In this document: positions 1 through 48,700 of the stretch, piece by piece | How positions within the stretch are numbered: the first letter of the stretch is position 1 | How the letters are laid out: each line of letters begins with the position of its first letter | Assembly: GCF_032854445.1 (NCBI RefSeq) | Contig: NC_088304.1 | Coordinates: forward strand, 29,951,732-30,015,731 | Source of the DNA: Liolophura sinensis | Taxonomy: Eukaryota; Mollusca; Polyplacophora; Chitonida; Chitonidae | Direction of reading: 5' to 3' | Length of the DNA stretch: 64,000 nucleotides | Position numbers and translations under genes: made by a program | The notes under the pieces: model-generated | The model's database searches: none | The model's input: only the letters and a program-made list of their open reading frames with translations | Told to the model about the DNA's origin: nothing

Positions 1-75
1 ATAAAGGAAAAAAAACGAGCGAACATAAAAAATATTTCATTTCATGTAACAAACTTTTCAAAACCTGTGACATGA

Positions 76-345
76 TTTATTTATTTATTTATTTGATTGG
101 TGTTTTACGCCGTACTCAAGAATATTTCACTTATATGACGGGGGCCAGCATTATGGTGGGTGGAAACCGGGCACAGCCCGGGGGAAACCCACAACCATCC
201 GCAGATTGCTGGCAGACCTTCCCATGTACGGCCGGAGAGGAAGCCAGCATGAGCTGGACTTGAACTCAAAGCGACCACATTGGTGAGAGACTCCAGGGTT
301 ATTGCGCTGCGCTAGCGCGCTGACCGACTGAGCCACGGAGGCCCC
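76..345 (-). mobile_element. tRNA-derived SINE, family 1, full length with 12-bp TSD
   Basis: Read on the minus strand: a tRNA-like head with A box TGGCTCAGTCGG and B box GAGTTCAAGTCC, a body, then the tail GGCGTAAAACACCAATC and a (TAAA)n end. CCTGTGACATGA occurs on both sides (64-75 and 346-357) as a target-site duplication. The element lies in a USP32 intron. Confidence 0.9.
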
Positions 346-27700: not shown

Positions 27701-30700
27701 CCAGATACAGTCTTGGTAAACCAAAACTGTACAGTTCTAAATATATTTTGTAACTTCCTGAAATGAAAAGAATAATTTCAAGTATTGTATGGAACATGTC
27801 TACATGAAACAGTGAATATGTTCATAATTTTGACTAATCAGTGAGAGGATCAGACTTACTTCCACTGTAATTCTTTGTCAATGAGGTCAGAGCTCCTGGA
27901 GGTCAAATCCACACTGAAACGATCTGTGTCAATCTTTGTAATACGGCAGTGTAGCGTCTGACCCACCTGTGAAACAACGACAACAGTGCTATATAAAACA
28001 TGCTCCATTTCAAATAGTGAAGGACATGCTGGCTTGTTCAGTTTTTTTTACCTTTCTCTGGTATCACCTTTATATTAAGCTTTGTAAAACTCATCTATAA
28101 AGCTAGGTTGTTGATTCTTTGGGGGTTTTATAGCACTTTTTATCAGACTACAGCGTAGTTGGAGGTGTGGGTTTTGTTCAGGTCAAGGTTACATTATGTC
28201 CATATGTACTTTGATTGGATGAAACAATAAGTCATGAAGATAGCTACTGTAATTTTTCAACCTTTTCGCATGTTTTCAAGGGGTTTATTCAAGCATATTC
28301 TGAAGTTATTATTCTGTGTAGACTGTCAAAATTACACTTTTTGTGAAGCCCTGAAACTGGACAATCCAACCAATGTAACAACCACTGAAAGTTGCTCGTT
28401 AATACCTGAAAAGTTTAGGAATTAGAGTAGCTCTTGTTTGTGATTTAAATTTAATTTTACACAATATATCAGACTCATATTTTACGGGAAAAGGGAAAAA
28501 AATATGGCTCCTTATCTGTTACATAACGTGATGATTTATTTACATACTTAAAAAGCAGGCAGAGAGTCTTTCTGGGAGGAAGAATCTTGTCTGACAGATC
28601 ATTTGAAAATTTACTGATGAACTTTTTCACATCTGACAGATCAAGGCAGTAGTCTTCAACCAACATTTGACTGTCGCAATCACACATCATGTTTAAGTTT
28701 ATATTTAAGCTTACAAGACATTTCACGTGTTATTTTTTTCACTGAGCTGTTCTACAAGCATAATTAAACACTGTATTAACATGCAATGCACTTTTATGTC
28801 ATTGTTATTGTTGTTGTACATAAACCATCACATTGACCTATCGTGTTAATAAGCCGACAATCTGTCTAAAACCATCATTCCTGTCAAGCCCGCGGTACTG
28901 TCGTTTTAAAGAATTTCCACTGTAATAAACTGACAAAAACCAAGGCTTTACAGTACTCCTAAAAGCACACACATACACGTATGACATCAACATTTGACTA
29001 GGTGGCAAAATTACATGCATACCAAGTGTAGAGTTAGGACTGGTGCAAAATCCCACTGCTAAGACTGACCTTAACCCTTTCCTCGGGATTGGCGACATGT
29101 TTATCACTGATCTTTTTGACATGCAGGAATCCAGAGATGCCATTATCCAGCCGTACACGGACTCCGATGGCCGATCCTGGACAGCTGCCAGAGTCAAAGT
29201 GACTCCATACCTACAACCATAACTGTTAAAGTTAAGACAGTTAAACCAAATTTTGATTTGTCCATCACAATGTTCACCACCAACAGGGGTACCTCCCTTC
29301 CTTCAAATACAAGTAATGAAACATTAGAGCCTCAGCAGCATTCAACAATTGTTCACAGTGTTAACACTGCAAGGAAGATCAAAGAAATTTTCTCAGTCAA
29401 ATCTGACTGAAGTTCCAAATTACCCTTCCAAAGAATATCAAAAATTACACATTACAGTTACACCTCCTGTTTATTTACTTATGTTTATGTAACTATTGTT
29501 TAAAATCATACATTATAATTTTTCACTTAAATGAAGGATGTTAGTAAGTAACATATCACTAAGCTTTTATCAGTCAGTTTTCATAAAGCCACTTTGGTAT
29601 GGTACAAACTTACATCACTGAGTTCTGGCAGGTCATTTCTCCTACAGAAGGGGCACTGCCACAGTCCTGTGTCCTCATCCCTAACAGGGTCTGCCCTGTC
29701 CAACTGATCCCCCTGGGGGCGTTTGTGGGCAATCCCCACCACTCGGCCCAGCACCAGCTTACCTGCAAACAAAGACCAGGTTAAACGTTGTAATATTTCA
29801 CGTGTGTAATATCTAATTGTCACATGCTCAAAATATTTCTTCTATCAGAACTCAGGGAAGAAAATCTTTTGCATCAAAATCAGCTGATATTTCTTCCACT
29901 GGCTGAGCTCCACTAATAAAACGATTAGATCATGGCCCATTATCACCTCAAATCAGCTGATCAGCTTCTCACACCTAACTTTTGTAACGGAGTGAAGGAG
30001 TGCTAGTGTGTGAGCAAAATCTACCCTAAAGCTTGTGTCATACAAATAAATGTTCCTGTGGTCATTAATACACCTAAACACTGAGATGGCTGACTGAGGG
30101 TTAGAGTTATGTATGTATCTTTTGTCAACACGTGGAACTAACACTCACCTACATGTATGTAGAACGTTTGGGGGGTATCTTCTGTTAACATGTGGAACTA
30201 ACACTCACCTACATGTATGTAGAACATTTGGGGGGTTTCTTCTGTCAACATGTGGAACTAACACTCACCTACATGTATGTAGAACGTTTGGGGGGTTTCT
30301 TCTGTCAACATGTGGAACTAACACTCACCTATGTAGAACGTTTGGGGGGTTCTTCTGTCAACATGTGGAACTAACACTCACCTACATGTATGTAGAACGT
30401 TTGGGGGGTTCTTCTGTCAACATGGGGAACTAACACTCACCTACATGTATGTAGAACGTTTGGGGGGTTCTTCTGTCAACATGTGGAACTAACACTCACC
30501 TACATGTATGTAGAACGTTTGGGGGGTTCTTCTGTCAACATGTGGAACTAACACTCACCTACATGTATGTAGAACGTTTGGGGGGTTTCTTCTGTCAACA
30601 TGTGGAACTAACACTCACCTACATGTATGTAGAACGTTTGGGGGGTTTCTTCTGTCAACATGTGGAACTAACACTCACCTACATGTATGTAGAACGTTTG

Positions 30701-33700
30701 GGGGGTTCTTCTGTCAACATGTGGAACTAACACTCACCTACATGTATGTAGAACGTTTGGGGGGTTCTTCTGTCAACACGTGGAACTAACACTCACCTAC
30801 ATGTATGTAGAACGTTTGGGGGGTTTCTTCTGTCAACATGTGGAACTAACACTCACCTATGTAGAAGGTTTGAGGGGTTTCTTCTGTCAACATGTGGAAC
30901 TAACACTCACCTATGTAGAATGTTTGAGGGGTTTCTTATGTCAACACGTGGAACTAACACTCAACTATGTAGAAGGTTTGAGGGGTTTCTTCTGTTAACA
31001 CGGGGAACAAAAACTCACCTATGTAGAACATTTGAGGGGTTTCTTTTGTCAACACGTGGAACTAACACTCACCTATGTAGAACATTTGAGGGGTTTCTTA
31101 TGTCAACACGTGGAACTAACACTCACCTATGTAGAACATTTGAGGGGTTTCTTATGTCAACACGTGGAACTAACACTCACCTATGTAGAACGTTTGAGGG
31201 GTTTCTTATGTCAACACGTGGAACTAACACTCACCTATGTAGAACGTTTGAGGGGTTTCTTATGTCAACACGTGGAACTAACACTCAACTATGTAGAACG
31301 TTTGAGGGGTTTCTTATGTCAACACGTGGAACTAACACTCACCTATGTAGAACGTTTGAGGGGTTTCTTTTGTCAACATGTGGAACTTCTCTTCATTTGT
31401 CGGTGATCTGTAAGGAGTTCGCAGGTCTTTGTAACGGTGATTCAGTTCTGCACGGATATCGTAGAGTGTGATGTGCCGATTTCCATAGCCCTGTGGAAAA
31501 TGAAAGAGAAAGAGAGAGCATCCATTAAAATCCATTCACCTGAATTTTACATCTTTCAGCATTTTATTAAAGCCACTGCACATGCTTGAAATCTCACCGT
31601 CATGAGAGCTTAAGTCTTCCAGAACTTTTTTGTTACTTGTTTATGTTTTCAAACCAGTTTTATTCAGTTGACCCTGAGCTAACTGTCACATGTACGTTAG
31701 AGGACAAGACAGTACTTGGCTATTTTCATATTTCAAACGAAAACAGGCTACTGAAGCTTCCTAAAAAGTATCATGCTTTATTTAACTATTTCAATGAGAT
31801 TTCACCGAATAACATGTAGAACAAAATGGCAATACGGCACAAATGGCCAATGTGAACTGCAGCAGACATCTTGAGAATTTTATCCAATCAAACGCGTTGC
31901 TATCAGATTGTGTGGCCTAAGCTGTGACGTAGCCTTTACCCATTCCCTCATTCAAGTGACATATGATAACTGCATAAGAGATAATTTTGCAACGATTTAG
32001 TTATGTGTAGTCGAAGGGTCATTCCTCAAAGTGATAATTGTGGGACAGGTCTGTATCATTTACGGACCACAAAAGACATAAAATCAGTTGATATACAAGC
32101 CATGTAATATTCAACTACAATATCACAAATAATGTCAGGCACTAGCATACCGTCTCGGCCCAAACTACATTCATCTCTCCAGTAGACCCTTGGCCTACTT
32201 AGTCATGCTGTTCAAATTATACAAATACATTTTTTGTCTTTCCTTTTGGCATACAGTCAACAGTTTCTAAATAACAAAAATCAGAGACACTGCTAAATCC
32301 ATCAGGTATGCCGAAAGTTTGTGGGGAAAAGACGATGATACCTCACCTGACAACGCTAAAGATTAATCAAACCTTATATTTTTTTTTTCTCTGAAGAATG
32401 TAAATTTTATTCCTCTGTCTTTCTCGCATACAACAGATATTTTCTTTTATAAAATACAATAGAATTATTGAAACTCAAGCCGAGGTGCTATCTCTGTCGC
32501 CCCCGGTAACTAGGTCAGCACTGCTCTCATCTTAGAAGCCACCACTACAAAACTGAAGCATACAATCCAACGACAGTCAAATGCCTAGATCATACATCCT
32601 CAGTAGTACTTAGAATTATTTCCATTTGTTTCAGAACAGATCATGAATGTGGTTGTACAGCAATCTTATTGTACATGTAGTTTTGTAAACATTTAATAGG
32701 GCCCAAATTCCCCAGCTAACCCCTCCAGAGGCTACGACCCGAACCACGAATACCGGGCTATTTAAACAGGGTCGCTGAAGTTCCTTGTAAATGATATGAT
32801 AGGCCTACTGTATTAACAGTTCAAGCAGTGGAAGAAATATCTTAAGATACGGTATGTACCATTTCCAAGAAAGTTATTTATCACTTGGGCCTTCATCATT
32901 AAGTCCACAACTTTTGTCTGCCACAGTCTACTGCTTAGATTATTATACGGAAAATACCCTCGATGTCAGAGAGCTAGAGTAAACGTGACGTCACCTTGCT
33001 CTTGATAATGAACACGTGCTGAAGATGTATCAAGGCGAAGTTTCACTGAATTTTACTTGGTCCAAAAAAATCTCAAAAAATATTTAATGCTTGTTTAAGA
33101 TACTTTGAATGGTAGTCTTTCAGTGGGCGTAACCATTATCCAGGTGTTGTTGTCTTTCATTTTATTTATTTATTTATTTGATTGGTGTTTTACGCCGTCC
33201 TCTTTCATTTTAAGATGCAGAATTAAAAACCAGAAAATTCACAAAGCACAAGCAATATCAGTTTGCTAAAAATAAAAAATTGAAAAAAAAAAAAAATTGA
33301 ATCATTATGACTTAACCTCAGCACCTCAGCAATATTGTAGTCATATCGCGGCCAGACCAAGTTTAAACTTGAAGTCACCAAATAAGAGCAAATTCCTGAA
33401 TAGTAAGCACTGCCTGCCCAGGACAAGTTGATCCAAGCTGTGCCCTCTGTTGCACTTTTCTGTATTAGCAAGTTAATGCTTCTGTATAGTTGTGCTGGTG
33501 AGGCAAAGAGATAGTCCATAGGTGCTGCAGTGTAACAGCTGAGATTGGTGTTTTCTACACAGCTTGTTGACAGACGTTCATTAGGTCAACATGTAAAGGT
33601 ACACATGTGTGCAGCCATGCATGATTTATTTATTTGATTGGTGTTTTACACCGTACTCAAGGATATTTCACTTATATGATGGTGGCCAGCATTTTGGGGG

Positions 33701-36700
33701 AGGAAACTAGCAAAACCCGTGACCATACGCAGGTTGACCGCAGACTTGAACTCACAGCGATCCCTTTGGTGGGAGGCCCTGGGTCATAGCACAGTGCTAA
33801 CCGCCATTGGCCCCCTGTGTACGATAAATGTCACTATAACTCCATACCTGTCTCTCCAACCCATACCTGTATCTCTAACTCCATACCTGTCTCTCTCACT
33901 CCATACCTTTCTCTCCAACCCATACCAGTCACTCTAACTCCATACCTGTCTCTCTCACTCCATACCTTTCTCTCCAACCCATACCTGTCTCTCTAACTCC
34001 ATACCTGTCTCTCTAACTCCTCAGCAAAAGCATCCAGATCCAGATCCTTCAGCCTCTCAGGACTCTCCAGGATTTCCTCCAGTGCTCCCGCAGGATTAGC
34101 ATCTTCAGCCGTGTCATCATACTCCAGGGCATCCACAGCCATCTTCCGCGCCCATTCGTATGTCTCCGGGTGGACCCTGGACCCATCCAGCACCTCCACA
34201 TACACCTCCGTGCTGATCACAACAACAACAACACAAGAATGACACATTCTCCACCTACATGTATGTTATGTCTAATAGTCGTGATGATCATCACAAATTT
34301 AAATCTATCTTCATGAAGCCTGCTGTATAAGCATGATATTTATGGTAATCTTAACTTACGACAACAATTTGCGATGTCTTGTGTACCTGATGACCAGCTC
34401 ACCTGTTGCCTAATGAGTTTGTGTCTATCTTGATGAAGCCTGCACAGTTGAGGAAGACCTTTGGCCCCATGTGGCAGGTGGTGACCAGCTGAGATCGGTT
34501 CTCCAGGAGGGTGTTACCCTGCTTCAGGATCTGAAACGTAGCAGAAGTAGACAATACAAACCCTGATTCTCATGCAATTGGGAACTGACTGACAATGAGT
34601 GGCTGTTGAGCTGGCTGGGACAGGCAACTCATGTGATGTAATACAGTGACATTCACGGACAGGGACCAGGAATGTTGAACTCATTTAAACACCATCAGGG
34701 CTCATTGCCTTGTTATGCCAATCAAGGTTAAAAATTTACCCTGCTAAATCAAAAGAAAAAGACCACTAATAGTTTCAGGCTTACATGAAATGCTTTTTTC
34801 TTCTTTATCTCAACATTCATTGTATCAAAGATGCCTTTGAAACCTATACACTGATATGACTGATACAAGGTTGTCAGTCAGATTTATCAGTCAGCGTAAT
34901 TAGGACATTTACGTCAAGACACATGTCCTCACCTTGACCATGTGTGAGCCTTTCCTGGGCCCCAGACCACAGATAAACTGCACCAGCGGGGCCATGTGGG
35001 GGTGTTCTATAGCTCTATTAACGTCAACCCCCACCTCGTTCACACGGTTCACAAACTCAAGGTAGAGACCGTTGATCAGTTCTTCTTTGCTCACATGATC
35101 CTGGAAAAGACACAGATACTCTGGTGAGCTTCAGTGTTGTTCCGGCTACCAATTTATTCAACAGTTGCAGTAAATGCTGAGGAGCAGATGAATGTGACAA
35201 GATAACCGTACTACCATAATCAAACAACATCTGACTATCACCTTGGCTACAAAATACACATTCATGTATAAGAAATACAAAGTCATTCTTCTCAGTGATA
35301 AATAACAAAAAGAGGAAATTTTATAAAACACTATTTTTTTTTCAACATTTATTTATTCTATTTATTTATTTATTTGATTGGTGTTTTACCCTGAATTCAA
35401 GAATATTTCACTTTTTTTAAAGCGGCCAGCATTATGGTGGGAGGAAACTGGGCAGAGCCCAGGGGAAACCCATGACCATCCACAGGAAGCTGGCAGCCCT
35501 TCCCACGTCTAGACGGAGAGGAAGCCAGCATGAGCTGGACTTGAACTCACAGCGACCGCACTATGTATCTGTATGGCTCCTGTGTCATTGACGCTTTGAA
35601 TATTTGTTATCGCTTGTTATCGTTTTCTATCTCTTAATGGTTAATGCTAACATCTGACATACACTTCATGATGCTCGCCTTTAAGAAGCTAACTTGCCTC
35701 CAGTCTCCGGGTGCGCTCGACGGTGAAAGTACTTTCAGTGAAATGAAAACTGTACCTGCAGTGAGTGATAACGGAGACAGAGAATATCCTCATCAGGGTT
35801 ACACAGCTGGGCAAACTCTATCAGGGGGTCCTGTAACCTGCGGGCTATTGACACAGCATGACGGAGAACAGGCGGGTACTCCCGGAAATCAGCCTGTGGG
35901 CAGCGACAAGCAGAGAGAAAGCAGATGTATAACTATACGAGACACATAATATTTCATATGCAATAATTGTTTCAATATTTGACATTTTCGCTTACATTTC
36001 AAATCCGTGATTTTAGTTGCCCTGGTTGCATGTTATTCACAGCTGGTACAAAGGAACAAACTGTCAGTGTTCAATACAAGGTCTATTACAAAAAATCAAA
36101 TGTACAACAATCAGAATAACTCAAATAAAAAAGTTTGACATTTCGGTATAGCATCTTCCTTCTGTTGCGTAACATGTATGGGTGTCAATGAAACATGATA
36201 TTTTAGCATCAAGTTTTCAATGTGTTACATCAAGATGTGAATTTCTTTTTTTTAAGTACCAATTCACCTATAAAGTTTACCATCTGTAATCATCAGAATA
36301 TCTATGAATGGAACAAACCATTGTTTCTACTGGCTTTTTGTCACAAAAAATTGAGCAAATGTTCCTGCAATGAAGTACACACCCATACATAAAACTCCTA
36401 AATGTCTTAGTACAAGGTGTGTACTCTTTCATACTTTCCTGTCAGCATATCCCCAGGCCTTTATTTTCGGAATTCTTCACCAGAATCTAAATGGATTCCC
36501 ATAGGTCTGCTTTGCAGGAATCCATCAGAATCTAGGTCAAATCTAGTACCACAAAGTATGCTATTACTCAAAGTTTTAATACATGGTAATGTAAAATCAC
36601 ATTCTGGGTGACATAAATATCACTATACAGGGGTAGAAATAAGTCCCACAAATCAAAAGGCCAGCAGGGCCAGTTGACTTGGAAATCAATAGGCCCTTGC

Positions 36701-39700: not shown

Positions 39701-42700
39701 AATTCCCATTTATCACAAAATAACGATAACTAAAATTGTTTTGATTAAAACTGAGGGAGAGAAGAACTATTGGTGGTAGGAACATAGACTAACTGCTCAG
39801 CAAAGAGTGAGCTTGTTTATAAGATTCTTGAACTGTCAGTATAACCCGCTGACCACCCCCGATGCTCTCCTGCGGTGCCCAGTTGATAAAAACGACAATC
39901 AACGTAATGAATCATGGGATACACTTTCCAAGTCCCAGGGCGAAACTTTAGGTCATTTACTGCTGGCTAAGAAAATTGATATCTTCATCCCCCACCCCTG
40001 GAGCAGGGAAGACAAAGTTCATAAACCTTGACAGGTAATGCATTTCTTTGCTAGACGTTTTACACCGCATTCTAGAATATTTCATTTATACACTGGCAAT
40101 CAGCATTATAATGAAGTAAAATTTTTCAGTCATATGAAATCCTTTGTAAACAGCTACTCACCTGGATTCTGCGGTGACAGCAACAACATGAGGTTTCTTA
40201 GAAGCAATGAACTCTTTTAACTTCTCTAAGTCACGTTTCTGAATGAATAGACAAATACAGGTGGATGTGGATTTAGTACAAGGTATATGTATAACAATGA
40301 CTGGGCACACAGTAAAAAAACATGAAGAAGTTCCCCTGAGTGCTACACTACTTAGTAACACATACAGTGTAGACACATCAATATTTACCATGATATCCTA
40401 AGGAGAGCTTTGAGATAGCACCTATTTGAGTCAGTGTTCAGACAGCTTCATGTACCATCCATATTGGTGGAAGGAGAATAGTGTTCAGACTGCTTCATGT
40501 ACCTTCCATATTGGTGGAAGGAGAATAGTGTTCAGACAGCTTCATGTACCATCCATATTGGTGGAAGGAGAAGAGTGTTCAGACAGCTTCATGTACCATC
40601 CGTATTGGTGGAAGGAGAATAGTGTTCAGACAGCTTCATGTACCATCCATATTGCTGGAAGGAGAAGAGTGTTCAGACAGCTTCATGTACCATCCATATT
40701 GGTGGAAGGAGAATAGTGTTCAGACAGCTTCATGTACCATCCATATTGGTGGAAGGAGAAGAGTGTTCAGACAGCTTCATGTACCATCCATATTGGTGGA
40801 AGGAGAATAATGTTCAGACAGCTTCATGTACCATCCGTATTGGTGGAAGGAGGAGAGTGTTCAGACAGCTTCATGTACCTTCCATATTGGTGGAAGGAGA
40901 ATAGTGTTCAGACTGCTTCATGTACCTTCCATATTGGTGGAAGGAGAAAAGTGTTCAGACAGCTTCATGTACCATCCATATTGGTGGAAGGAGAAGAGTG
41001 TTCAGACAGCTTCATGAACCTTTCATATTGGTGGAAGGAGAATAATGTTCAGACAGCTTCATGTACCTTCCATAATGTTGGAAGGAGAAGAGTGTTCAGA
41101 CAGCTTCATGTACCATCCATATTGGTGGAAGGAGAAGAGTGTTCAGACAGCTTCATGTACCATCCATATTGGTGGAAGGAGAAGAGTGTTCAGACTGCTT
41201 CATGTACCTTCCATATTGGTGGAAGGAGAAAAGTGTTCAGACAGCTTCATGTACCTTCCATATTGGTGGAAGGAGAAGAGTGCTCAGACAGCTTCATGAA
41301 CCTTTCATATTGGTGGAAGGAGAATAATGTTCAGACAGCTTCATGTACCTTCCATAATGTTGGAAGGAGAAGAGTGTTCAGACAGCTTCATGTACCATCC
41401 ATATTGGTGGAAGGAGAAGAGTGTTCAGACAGCTTCATGTACCATCCATATTGGTGGAAGGAGAAGAGTGTTCAGACTGCTTCATGTACCTTCCATATTG
41501 GTGGAAGGAGAATAGTGTTCAGACAGCTTCATGTACCTTCCATATTGGTGGAAGGAGAAGAGTGTTCAGACAGCTTCATGAACCTTTCATATTGGTGGAA
41601 GGAGAATAGTGTTCAGACTGCTTCATGTACCTTCCATAATGTTGGAAGGAGAAGAGTGTTCAGACAGCTTCATGTACCATCCATATTGGTGGAAGGAGAA
41701 GAGTGTTCAGACAGCTTCATGTACCATCCATATTGGTGGAAGGAGGAGAGTGTTCAGACAGCTTCATGTACCTTCCATATTGGTGGAAGGAGAATAGTGT
41801 TCAGACTGCTTCATGTACCTTCCATATTGGTGGAAGGAGAAAAGTGTTCAGACAGCTTCATGTACCATCCATATTGGTGGAAGGAGAAGAGTGTTCAGAC
41901 AGCTTCATGAACCTTTCATATTGGTGGAAGGAGAATAATGTTCAGACAGCTTCATGTACCTTCCATAATGTTGGAAGGAGAAGAGTGTTCAGACAGCTTC
42001 ATGTACCATCCATATTGGTGGAAGGAGGAGAGTGTTCAGACAGCTTCATGTACCTTCCATATTGGTGGAAGGAGAATAGTGTTCAGACTGCTTCATGTAC
42101 CTTCCATATTGGTGGAAGGAGAAAAGTGTTCAGACAGCTTCATGTACCATCCATATTGGTGGAAGGAGAAGAGTGTTCAGACAGCTTCATGAACCTTTCA
42201 TATTGGTGGAAGGAGAATAATGTTCAGACAGCTTCATGTACCTTCCATAATGTTGGAAGGAGAAGAGTGTTCAGACAGCTTCATGTACCATCCATATTGG
42301 TGGAAGGAGAATAGTGTTCAGACAGCTTCATGTACCTTCCATATTGGTGGAAGGAGAAGAGTGTTCAGACAGCTTCATGTATCATCCATATTGGTGGAAG
42401 GAGAATAGTGTTCAGACTGCTTCATGTACCTTCCATATTGGTGGAAGGAGAATAGTGTTCAGACTGCTTCATGTACCTTCCATATTGGTGGAAGGAGAAT
42501 AGTGTTCAGACAGCTTCATGTACCTTCCATATTGGTGGAAGGAGAAGAGTGTTCAGACAGCTTCATGTATCATCCATATTGGTGGAAGGAGAATAATGTT
42601 CAGACAGCTTCATGTACCATCCGTATTGGTGGAAGGAGAAGAGTGTTCAGACAGCTTCATGTACCATCCATATTGGTGGAAGGAGAAGAGTGTTCAGACA

Positions 42701-45700
42701 GCTTCATGTACCTTCCATATTGGTGGAAGGAGAAGAGTGTTCAGACTGCTTCATGTACCTTCCATATTGGTGGAAGGAGAAAAGTGTTCAGACAGCTTCA
42801 TGTACCTTCCATAATGTTGGAAGGAGAAGAGTGTTCAGACAGCTTCATGTACCTTCCATATTGGTGGAAGGAGAATAGTGTTCAGACAGCTTCATGTACC
42901 TTCCATATTGGTGGAAGGAGAATAGTGCGGACACAGCTTCATGTAAGACAACACAAGATAGCACCATCCACTGCTTATTGCTAAAATGACCCAACAACAA
43001 TGAAATAAGGAGAATCAAGAAGGTTACTTCCCTCTTCTACAACATGAATGAGACCACTTCTCGTGAGACCATTGCCAGGTGATTGTGAAACAAGTACCTT
43101 AAACACCTGGCCGTGGACCTTTTATACATTATACAACTGATAGTTACTCCATGACTGTATTACATGTACATGTACCTTGCCCTTGATGTCCAGTTCCCGA
43201 CCCCAGGCATTACGGCGCGTTAGCATGTACTCCAGGCGCAGGTAATCTGTCACCTCTCCATCACCGTCTATCATAGCGCAGAACGCAGCTGTGTCCCTGT
43301 GAAGAAAAGCACAGCATACAACAATCTAAATCATCTATGGCTTGATCTATTTGTGTAATTCTTATACATAAGGTAAAAACCTAAATTAATTTCCATTGCC
43401 AGTAAACTTAGCTATGCATTAACAGACCAGTAATCAATGCAAGGTTTCCTTCTGTCCCATATGTAAATGTAAAATACAGTATTAATGCAATTTTAGATCA
43501 CAATGGATATCTGTTTTTATTTTCATCACCAAGAAGCCAAAACATTAATAAATCAACAGTCATACTTTGAATATGACAATTTTATGTAAATGTGGGTAAT
43601 CATTTTGGAGAAATCAAATTTAATGTAATTGGGCTCTTTTTGCAAACTGTAGTAGCATGCCCTCATGTTATCCCCCAGGACTTGTTTTACAAAGTTGTAG
43701 TAGCCCCTGGTGTAATGTCTTAGGGCCCGTTTTACAAAGCCGTAGTAGTGTGCGCCTGGTGTAATAGTCCCTGGTGTAATGCCCTAGGGCTTGTTTTACA
43801 AAGCTGTAGTAGAATGCACCTGTTGAGTAATGTCCTAGGGCCCGTTTTGCAAAGCTGCTGAAGCATACCCTGGTGTAATGTTCTAGAGCCCATTTTACAA
43901 AGCTGTAGTACCGTGCCCTTGGCGTAATGTCCCAGGGCCCGTTTTACAAAGCTGCAGTAGCGTGCGCCAGTGGAACAATGTCTTAGGGCCCGTTTTACAA
44001 AGCTGTAGTAGCATGCGCCTGGTGTGATTTCCATGCCAACATATACTGAAGGCAGATGTCACAATAGCAACTGTGCATGATGTAACATTGTAGTAACTAC
44101 TTACTAAGACGTGTCCCTAAAAGATACAGAACTATATTAAACAATCAGGGTGAAGGTACTGAAGTTCCAGTCCAGTGGTGTACCTCTGTTGTACAAATGC
44201 CAGTCCCATGACCCTCAGTCCACGACTACTATCTTCGTCATCATCATCGTCCAGCTGTTGGTCAACCTGGTACGGAGCCACCTTTAGCCAGTTGTACAGC
44301 TTACGACAACATGCCTGACAAGCACATCCACAGACAGACGTTAGTATTTATATATGTATGAGTGTTCGAAAACATACGTTGGTCAGGGTGATACAGGTTA
44401 ATGGCTAAATCATCTGCACATGCAGTTATCTGTATGTTTGCTTGGAGTTTAACATTGCTTTTATCATATCAGTCACATTGCACTTCTTTGAAGTAGGCCA
44501 TTTCCAAACATATTTACAATGCTGCCTCAGGAGTTCTTCCTCATGACAAAGTACATATCTGGTGTACGTTTGGTGAGCTTTGGATAAACTATTCTGGAGA
44601 TATCATACTAGTGTAATTCTACGATCTTTTCTCAGGTTTGCAAAATGCTGATCTAATTTTGTTCTGAAGACATCATTGTGTATACAGTGACAAAATTACA
44701 ATTTCTGTGAAGCCCTCAAATTGGCCATTCCAACCAATGTAGTTTTGTTTCCGAAATCAAATTAAATATGTGCATCAACTGCATTGAAAATGGGTATGTC
44801 CTGACCTTAACAACGCCCTCCTTCGCCTCCTGTAAGAGCCGGGCACGGATCTCCTTCTGCATCTGTGGGTACAGAATCTGCTTGAGGGCTCGCTCCAGAG
44901 CCTGAGTTCTCTGCTCATTCCACTGCTCTACTAGGTGACTGAATTCATCCTACACGAAGAAAGGAACAGTCAGTTATCAGCACTGTGAGATAAGGTAAAT
45001 GATCTAAAACTGTCCCAATCTGTGCATTTTCAGAACTACATAAATGTCATAAAATATTACTTTTGGTGATCAAACTTACATTTTTCTTGTATTTATTTAT
45101 TTATTTTACTGTTGTTTTACACTGTACTCAAGAATATTTCACTTATACGACAAAGGCCAGTGTTGTGGTGGGTGGAAAACCACAAACATAGAAAAATCCC
45201 TTGAACATTCTAAAATTGCCGTAAGAATTTATTTACCGCTCAAAAGCAAAAGAGAATTTGTTCTGACTTTCAGACATTAGACTGATTGCAAAAATTGATC
45301 AATGGAGTCCATTTTCATGCTCAACCAACAGTGCTTCATGGCAAAGTGTTGTGTGGTTGGTACAGGTGAAATCAAGCTTACCATATTGATACTAATACAT
45401 GTACTTTCAATTGACTTCTGATTCTGCCTACATATAAACAGTCTTAAAAACTTTTCTTCACATTCTAAAAAGTTACATCCCACCAACTTTTGTACCCGAT
45501 CTGTTCAAATGTTGACAACCTTGTCATAAGAGCTGCCATCACTGGCCAAATTTGTCCATCATCAAGTAAGTGAAGACAGGTTTGATCCCAGCCTGCATTC
45601 CTATTAAGCACAGTGGTTAGAACAGGGAAGAACGTAGCCCATGTAACCACTGTGAAGCAAGGCAAGGAAGTCCTTCATCTTAGAAAGAGGTTTGGACTCC

Positions 45701-48700
45701 TTACTCTATAATACAGCTGTTTGATCTCCTCAAAGTAAGACTGAGTTCCCATGTCCTCTCCGTCTATCATCAGTGTCAGTGTTAGCAGGTGGTCATCTTC
45801 TGCCTAATAAAACACAGCATAACAATCGGTTCAGAGTAGCGAACGCAGACAACAAGCCAAGGCAAAACAACGACAAGGGAGTGGTAGAGAGCACATGTAC
45901 AAGCCTAATAATCATTTTTAAATTCCGGTGCAGGACATCTTCCCGCTATTCGCATTATTAACAAAGTTACAATTGTATTTATTAGGCAGGCTCAGTGAAC
46001 ATGTACCTGTTGCCAAAATACATGTATCTATAGTAAACTCAAAGCTCTTAACACTGTTGCATCAGTCCTTAGACTTCATAAAAGTGCTCCCATGCTAAAC
46101 ACTCTGAAATTTCATTTGACTGGTGTTTTACGCCGTACTCAAGAATATTTCACTTATACAACGGCAGCCAGCATTATGGTGGGTGGAAACCGGGTAGAGC
46201 CCGGGGGAAACCCACAACCATCCGCAGGTTGCTGTCAGACCTTCTCACGTACGGCCGGAAACACTCTGAAATTCCATGGTACGAACAGTTCAGACGCTAA
46301 CTGATTGATTCACTGACTGACCTTTTCCAAGGAGCAATTTAGTCTCTAAAATAACGCTTTACAAAGTACAATGGGGATTAATGTACAAAATGTGTGCAAA
46401 AATAAAAGAGAGGACCAACCATGGAGAGTTTGAGGAAATCATCATCCTTTAGATCTTTTACTGGTTTGTTTTTCAAGTACTTCATCCCGTAACACCCATG
46501 GTTCTCATCAATTTCCTGTCAACAACAAAAAACAAAACATCAATCACACATGTTATACACATCTTTTAGCTTTAGCTTAGTCTACTTAACCATTCTCGTA
46601 CAAACGGCAAGAGCAAGGTACATTTTATAGACAGAGATAAGTTGAATGATAATAGATATATAAAACTCAGGACAAAGGCGACTTTGTACTGTACCAGTAA
46701 CTAAAAAGCCCAACTTTTTTTCTGTTGTTCTTTGCACTGATTAACAATTGTTGTAGTCTTACAGGTCATGCCATACATATTTGTTAACCTGGTCCCATAA
46801 TCACAAAAAAGACTTAACCGAGGAAATCTTTTTTCCAGACTAAAAGTTGTCTAAGTCAAAGACAGCTTAGAAGATTTTCAGGCCAGGGCCCACTTGCATG
46901 AAACCTTCTTAAAGAGCACGTAACTATCACGGCAAAGTAATGTTGGCTGCCATGGTAGTTACAAGCTCTTAACATTAACGGGTTCTTGCAAGTGAACCTC
47001 GATATTCAATGTTGAGTCACAGTTGATAGCAGTTGGAGTGAGTGAGTGCTTGGGGTTTAACGTCGTACTCAACAATTTTTCAGTCATATGACGATGAAGG
47101 AATCATTAGGGTGCATGTACGTGTAATGTGCCTCCTTGTTGCAGGACGGATTTCCACCGCTCTTTTATTTAGTGCTGCTTCACTGAGACGACTTACCGAA
47201 GGCAAGTAAGTTGCCCCGCCCGAGCCATTATACTGATACGGGTCAACCAGTCGTTGCATTATCCCCTTCATGCTGAAGAAAAGAGGAAGTTACAACTTCC
47301 TCTTTTAAAGTCTTAGGTGTGACTCGATCAAGGATTGATCCTGGATCTACCGGTCCCGAAGCGGACGCTCTACCAACTGTGCTATCCAGGCTGGTGATAA
47401 CAGTTGGAGGACAGAGGTCATTGCAGACCCACTGGACGATTTAAAAGCATTCTTTTTGTCCATGCTGATTTCTCAAACAATGAAGTTGCAGACTCACATC
47501 CACCTTTCACTAGCAAGGCTATGGGATGGTCATATAGTTCCCTCCACGCATAAACTAACACGGCGTCGTGTAAGTAAAAAAGCTTACTTCAGAATTAAAC
47601 CCCAATGAAATGAATAACAAAATAAACTAATATTTGAAAACACTAAATAGCAGAAAGGTATAGACAAGAAAGACCCAATTGTATTTAAACCCAACCCATG
47701 CTTCAGATGAACACACTAGATGCTTTGGTACCTCTGCTGTGGTTCACTCATTCGTCACTAGTTCTACATTAGTTTTCTGTAACCACTCACCTTAATGCCC
47801 TTCTTAGTGGGTGTGACCTTGAGCTTGGCCCGCTCATAGTAAGTCTCCCTGAGACACTGTCTGACGAGGGGCTCATGGGCAATCTGCATAGCCACCATGT
47901 GACGTGCTCCTTTCAATACGTCGTCTGCTGTCGGGAATTGACTGAAACACAAGACAAATTAGTGAAAAAAAATCAATAAATCTTTCCACTGATCAGCAAA
48001 ATTACCAACCCTAAGGCAGGCTAGTCAGGCCTAGAGCCAGATTTTATAGTACATTTAACCACATTTGTTTTCAAACCTATTTGTATTTAAACAATATGTC
48101 TAAGTATAGAACAGCATAATCAAAATAAAGAGTCTCATCCCATAGGCTACAAGGTAGAGATGGCATACACAGGTAGAGATGGCATATACAGGTAGAGATG
48201 GCATATATAGGTAGAGATGGCATACACAGGTAGAGATGGCATACACAGGTAGATAGCACACACCCAAATCAGTGGTCATAGAAGGTAGGAACTCCTTACT
48301 TGGTGTTATTCTTGTCAAGAATGATTTCCATTTTGTTCTGGTGTGTTCATGATATCATGTTCATGGACAAGTGCATATCAACATGTCCCGTTCGGATTTG
48401 AAAGGGCGAGTAAAAACATCCTTCCCCAACATGGCTTTACCTGCAGACATAGTCCTTGGCCAGCTCTAGGGGCTCTATGGGACACTGTTCTATGTCGTGA
48501 CGAGTGTAGTTGTCTCTCAGGTTCTCCCCAAACTGCTCCGGCTTCAGACCAAACTTTTCTGCTATATCACCTGAAGGTTGGAAAACATATCCATGAACTT
48601 ACTTATTTACTCATTGATTCATATGCTTGCTTAACCAACGTATTTTATGCCAGCAAAAATGTACTAACTTGAAAGACAAGTATTTATTTATTTGATTTAT

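Follow-up and report, generated by a model that had tools for sequence, protein, structure and literature searches.

The chiton Liolophura sinensis (Mollusca, Polyplacophora) carries, in its gene for the transcription elongation factor SPT6, a tandem array whose repeated unit consists of the end of an exon together with the exon's own 5′ splice site. The window analysed here, 64,000 nucleotides of the RefSeq assembly GCF_032854445.1 (contig NC_088304.1, forward-strand positions 29,951,732 to 30,015,731; scaffold C10 in the numbering used below), holds this array and a second, unrelated one on the preceding SPT6 exon. In window coordinates, with a slash marking the exon–intron boundary, the features are as follows.

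34005..34208, minus strand: preceding SPT6 exon (translated stretch; 5′ limit approximate), ending in EELERQ, with its donor at 34004
33829..34020, minus strand: second array seeded on a donor; it has about ten units, 19-20 nt long, each made of the exon end (GAGTTAGAGAGACAG) and the donor GTATGG
31343..31490, minus strand: SPT6 exon, numbered exon 26 in an earlier note on this DNA; 148 nt, ending in phase 1
31334..31342, minus strand: TAG/GTGAGTGTT, authentic 5′ splice site and donor 1 of the array
30118..31387, minus strand: minisatellite with 22 complete units, then a truncated 23rd; unit 1 comprises the last 43-45 nt of the exon and the first 9-11 nt of the intron
30148..31288, minus strand: 21 later donor positions (decoys), 19 of them intact (TAG/GTGAGT) and 2 broken
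29763..31342, minus strand: intron holding the array; the next exon begins at 29762

The earlier note, made from the sequence of the window, had reported a 22-copy array built from an exon end and its own donor in SPT6, and each of these elements is borne out. Tandem Repeats Finder describes the minus-strand array at 30118-31387 with a period of 54, 22.4 copies and 94% matches, a degree of repetition that rules out a chance origin, and cutting it unit by unit gives 22 complete units from 31387 to about 30138, followed by the truncated 23rd. The unit runs exactly across the junction of a real exon, although the cut between exon and intron within the first unit is ambiguous by a shared AG. The gene assignment rests on the joined peptide of the array-bearing exon and the next exon, which matches human SPT6 (PDB 7oop_M, E 6.2e-43). 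When the exon and first unit were searched against the assembly (609,464,459 bases in 632 contigs, representing one haplotype), all 10 matches fell inside the array and no second genomic site was found, a result in which a missed match is not proof of rarity.

The copies differ in an ordered manner along the array. Copies 1-10 are 54 nt each, and the later twelve are 53, 59 or 60 nt long, mostly with a 6 nt insertion adjoining the donor and in some cases a 1 nt deletion. Units of 54 and 60 nt, multiples of three as the earlier note had stated, are thus present, but so are units of 59 and 53 nt, and these shift six donors (12-15, 17 and 18) out of the reading frame of the exon. The description of about 22 near-identical donors likewise needs a correction: 20 of the 22 keep the GT and read TAG/GTGAGT, as does the authentic donor at 31342, but copy 2 (31288) and copy 8 (30964) read TTGAGT, so that the decoy nearest to the authentic donor is a broken one. 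The immediate stop that the note had read beyond the first donor holds for the whole series, as codon 53 of the exon becomes a stop on extension to any of the 21 later positions; from the reading frames, full-length SPT6 is obtained from the first donor only.

The second array, at 33829-34020, had not been mentioned in the earlier note. On its own, the exon that bears it matches the Pfam family HHH_9 with E 3.1e-6; when it is joined to the following, array-bearing exon, the match improves to E 4.3e-8, covers profile positions 1-70 of 70 and crosses the junction, which supports splicing from donor 34004 to acceptor 31490. Two consecutive SPT6 exons therefore bear arrays, and the units of the two are unrelated. 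Inspection by eye of the edges of 11 other arrays in the window, and of the surroundings of three, revealed no recognisable exon overlap. A 47 nt unit repeated about 53 times lies between SPT6 exons at 40433-42945, and no exon overlap was recognised by eye at its edges.

Are such arrays confined to SPT6? We searched the assembly for three motif copies spaced 38-68 nt apart and compared donor motifs with their reversed versions. Triples of AGGTGAGT numbered 1572 against 535 for the reversed motif, and those of AGGTAAGT showed a slight excess (811 against 643); these counts are overlapping matches rather than arrays and a single long array can dominate them, and we attach no statistical weight to them. 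For each donor search we took the first 100 places in the list, which all fall on C1, the largest scaffold (96,433,062 bp), and grouped them into 41 arrays altogether; 40 of these were fetched and 38 had a visible 5′ edge. The AGGTGAGT sample is limited to the first 7 Mb of C1, which is array-dense, and arrays crowd near the start of this scaffold, whose first 4.5 Mb (out of 96 Mb) hold 9 of the 26 AGGTAAGT arrays among the matches listed. Exon ends recognised by homology stand at the array donor in 10 of the 38 sampled arrays, three of them apparently in one gene:

L005: ankyrin (Pfam, E 5.2e-12)
L007: PDB 'helicase-like protein' (E 1.8e-18)
L008: the same PDB 'helicase-like protein' as L007 (E 3.8e-11; Pfam only 0.0012, firm only by PDB)
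L009: DUF3535 (E 1.2e-5; profile stops 12 residues short of the donor)
L017: Fe_hyd_lg_C, Fe-hydrogenase-like (E 3.5e-13)
L018: 2-oxoglutarate dehydrogenase, OGDH (E 6e-21; Pfam only 0.017, firm only by PDB)
L027: regulatory-associated protein of mTOR, RPTOR (E 1.3e-15)
L031: Core-2/I-branching enzyme (E 1.7e-6)
L034: RNA polymerase III RPC1 (E 4.2e-9)
L036: GH31 (E 6.4e-14)

The arrays L007, L008 and L009 share a stretch of about 22 kb on the minus strand of C1 (4.179-4.201 Mb), where they follow the order of the matched protein and have different units; their exons look like parts of one gene, BTAF1/Mot1. In L031, L034 and L036 the search motif first occurs in exact form downstream of the first donor. 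Further exons look coding by eye, but those of L019, L021 and L039 have no PDB match, and neither the exon of L025 nor a shorter frame of L020 has a Pfam match.

As a control, all 18 arrays grouped among the matches listed for the reversed motif TGAGTGGA were fetched; 17 had a 5′ edge (L046 did not) and 16 an open frame by our rule (L051 did not). None of these 16 matches Pfam, even at E 0.1, and this includes L052, a control that overlaps with the donor motif and has coding-like sequence upstream. Among the test arrays, the rule and library used for the controls give matches at E up to 1e-3 in 6 of 36, while L006, L013, L022 and L027 give Pfam matches of doubtful meaning only (0.03-0.1). The difference (6/36 against 0/16) has a one-sided probability of about 0.10, calculated by hand, and is not significant alone; PDB searches covered 8 test loci (5 matches) and no controls, hence the figure of 10 in 38 has no equal control. 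A stronger argument than this comparison is positional: conserved coding sequence meets the intron at the repeated donor in the recognised cases, and in nine of the ten the similarity stops no more than a few residues short of the donor (hand count). Judged from sequence, then, the same array anatomy recurs at unrelated genes of one genome.

Acceptors are affected as well. Triples of the acceptor-like motif TTTNCAGG numbered 1994 against 792 for its reversed form, and 20 acceptor-like arrays, each fetched so as to include its 3′ edge, were searched against Pfam with the longest frame of each and the second-longest of three. One array (L069) ends at a DEP-domain exon (7.6e-16) and another (L072) at an fn3 exon (1.2e-7), where the acceptor is found about 40 nt beyond the computed edge, within a degenerate last copy; a third (L082) shows a weak likeness to deoxyribose-phosphate aldolase (E 0.034). 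With two of the 20 firm, arrays therefore form at both kinds of boundary. In L069, L072 and L082 the 3′ splice site sits in the last copy, next to the DEP, the fn3 and perhaps the aldolase exon, respectively. Dispersed repeats were also encountered: window positions 3-260 and 45999-46301 and the locus L071 carry repeats with a common reading frame (RRTQEYFTY...), and L032 holds one with a tail like GTACGGCGTGAAACACCAATCAAATAAATAAAT, which resembles molluscan SINEs.

The strength of the decoys was assessed as a nine-position consensus count in 12 donor arrays, two from SPT6 and ten from C1, the latter within the fetched piece only. In all twelve, 3 to 19 downstream sites per array are at least as strong as the authentic donor, and several different genes therefore live with decoys; in the SPT6 array on exon 31343-31490 it is the 19 intact decoys that equal the authentic donor. 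An in-frame stop lies ahead of the first equally strong decoy in 7 of the 12 arrays, and in L005 and L017 it starts one base past that decoy. L008, L031 and L036 have no stop in frame for 192-275 nt beyond the donor, and use of their first decoys could instead yield a longer protein. For L008, with its 33 nt unit and a frame open for 192 nt, this could mean 11 or 22 extra in-frame residues.

How should the SPT6 array be understood? In amphioxus, 'mirages' are tandem repeats across exon-intron boundaries (PMC3087553, PMC3902484), and the SPT6 array shares two structural features with them, in that its unit holds exonic sequence and adjoining intron with a splice site and its minisatellite-like tandem copies adjoin the exon. 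We consider it very probable that the SPT6 array is a neutral minisatellite of this kind and that the authentic first donor is the sole one used. A short segment across the exon end and intron start would have been duplicated in tandem, after which the copies would have expanded to 22 inside the intron, via slippage or unequal exchange. Such growth into the intron would be tolerated because the authentic donor stays first in the series, nearest to the exon. The spliceosome would use this donor, which is transcribed first and keeps the exon at its natural length of 148 nt; splicing at a later one would lead to a premature stop and most likely to mRNA decay. First-donor use in SPT6 is supported by the published amphioxus cases: Adh3 data and globin RT-PCR suggest that regular splicing is undisturbed by mirages (PMC3087553), and the Adh and troponin C mirages are said to generate no aberrant mRNAs (PMC3902484).

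Several observations weigh against this reading. No exon was recognised by homology in 28 of the 38 sampled arrays. Pooled over the 12 arrays, the donor columns are less variable than the rest (0.058 against 0.105), which is readable as constraint, with the bias that 10 of the 12 arrays were found via a search for perfect donors. The nearest SPT6 decoy (copy 2) is one of only two that are broken, which could hint at selection against it, although with 2 of 21 broken this coincidence has a chance of about 10%. Against a function, in turn, the donor window within the SPT6 array itself is not exceptionally conserved, with 2 changes in 189 cells; since 11 of the 45 nine-column windows change as little or less, we claim no constraint on its decoys. 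Nor is the RNA structure of three SPT6 units stabler than that of shuffled sequences (z 1.14).

These tests bear on a regulatory alternative, in which the decoys would bind U1 and divert transcripts to stop-containing mRNA that is decayed, with array length tuning the dosage of SPT6. The 19 decoys of full strength and the stop that extension to any SPT6 decoy would introduce speak for such a poison-donor array. However, the identical anatomy at unrelated genes, the inconstancy of the stops (as in the open frames of L008, L031 and L036) and the normal splicing reported for the amphioxus cases (PMC3087553, PMC3902484) make it very improbable, and together with the structure and conservation results they leave the role as donor reservoir, rheostat or poison exon proposed in the earlier note unsupported. 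Less probable still is an assembly artefact that created false tandem copies. Tandem arrays are a common source of assembly errors, and one amphioxus mirage was seemingly misassembled in the draft genome (PMC3087553). Against this, the genome report gives PacBio HiFi reads with a mean of 8,347 bp at 14x for the assembly, which we take to be that of Liolophura japonica (PMC11068029), and this read length far exceeds the 1.3 kb array; the ordered differences between SPT6 units and the same organisation at further loci of the assembly also speak against an artefact.

A bolder possibility goes beyond mere tolerance: minisatellites might arise preferentially at splice boundaries, where co-transcriptional R-loops or polymerase stalling, for example, could seed them. 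The motif excess over the reversed controls for AGGTGAGT and TTTNCAGG, the arrays on two consecutive SPT6 exons and the three in an apparent single gene (L007-L009) all point this way. Yet AGGTAAGT is only slightly above its control, the counts share the weakness of match counts noted above, crowding near one end of C1 could alone place several arrays in one gene, and the homology comparison falls short of significance, so that we regard preferred seeding as unlikely. We give the same low probability to its wider form, in which splice boundaries would be recurrent birthplaces of minisatellites through a process tied to transcription or splicing, with perhaps at least a hundred genes carrying competing, near-identical donors or acceptors, introns enlarged and a standing pressure on splice-site choice. 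The figure of a hundred genes is a crude extrapolation, in which 15 and 26 arrays per 100 listed matches are scaled to 1572 and 811 and the recognised fractions (6 of 15 and 4 of 23 arrays) are applied, giving about 130 genes.

The arrays, neutral minisatellites in the reading that we favour, are most likely harmless. Each is a natural competition experiment, in which up to 19 copies of equal strength stand downstream of the authentic donor, at distances that are known. Genes bearing them must splice correctly and thus offer a natural test of choice among identical splice sites; RNA-seq data deposited for the species could reveal whether position, exon length or transcription order sets donor choice. 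They also carry a warning, as decoys may be mistaken for the real splice sites when genes are modelled in such genomes.

Ordinary intronic minisatellites or variable number tandem repeats (VNTRs) have a comparable unit size, divergence between copies and expected instability. The SPT6 array is unlike them in that a splice site and coding sequence form part of its unit. Introns can also be gained when a segment with AG/GT is duplicated in tandem, as one report describes for ATP2A1 and for cases in fission yeast and potato (PMC4974935). The SPT6 array shares this duplication, but it sets out from a donor already present and lengthens the intron behind it; its exons and junctions agree with SPT6, and nothing in this comparison with SPT6 matches suggests a new intron.

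The kind of array described here is already known from the amphioxus mirages, reported for Adh3, the globins BflGb6 and BflGb9 and troponin C, with a similar case in PGBD5 (PMC3087553, PMC3902484); the accessible part of a report on amphioxus huntingtin describes tandem repeats, with boundary arrays not among them (PMC2206037). Among the matches listed in our literature search, which covered titles and abstract openings and left most subscription papers outside its coverage, we found no report of boundary-spanning arrays from a mollusc or chiton. Amphioxus and chiton arrays have in common a unit of exon edge and splice site, tandem copies, units of 10 to 160 bp and an occurrence at donor and acceptor boundaries; the amphioxus mirages are reported to be harmless to splicing. 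The chiton differs in its phylum, in the 22 copies within a transcription elongation factor gene, in the several unrelated genes sampled and in the arrays on two consecutive exons. Within the literature searched, the phylum, the recurrence at unrelated genes and the 22-copy SPT6 array with its neighbour on the consecutive exon thus appear to be new, and they extend the mirage phenomenon from cephalochordates to a mollusc.

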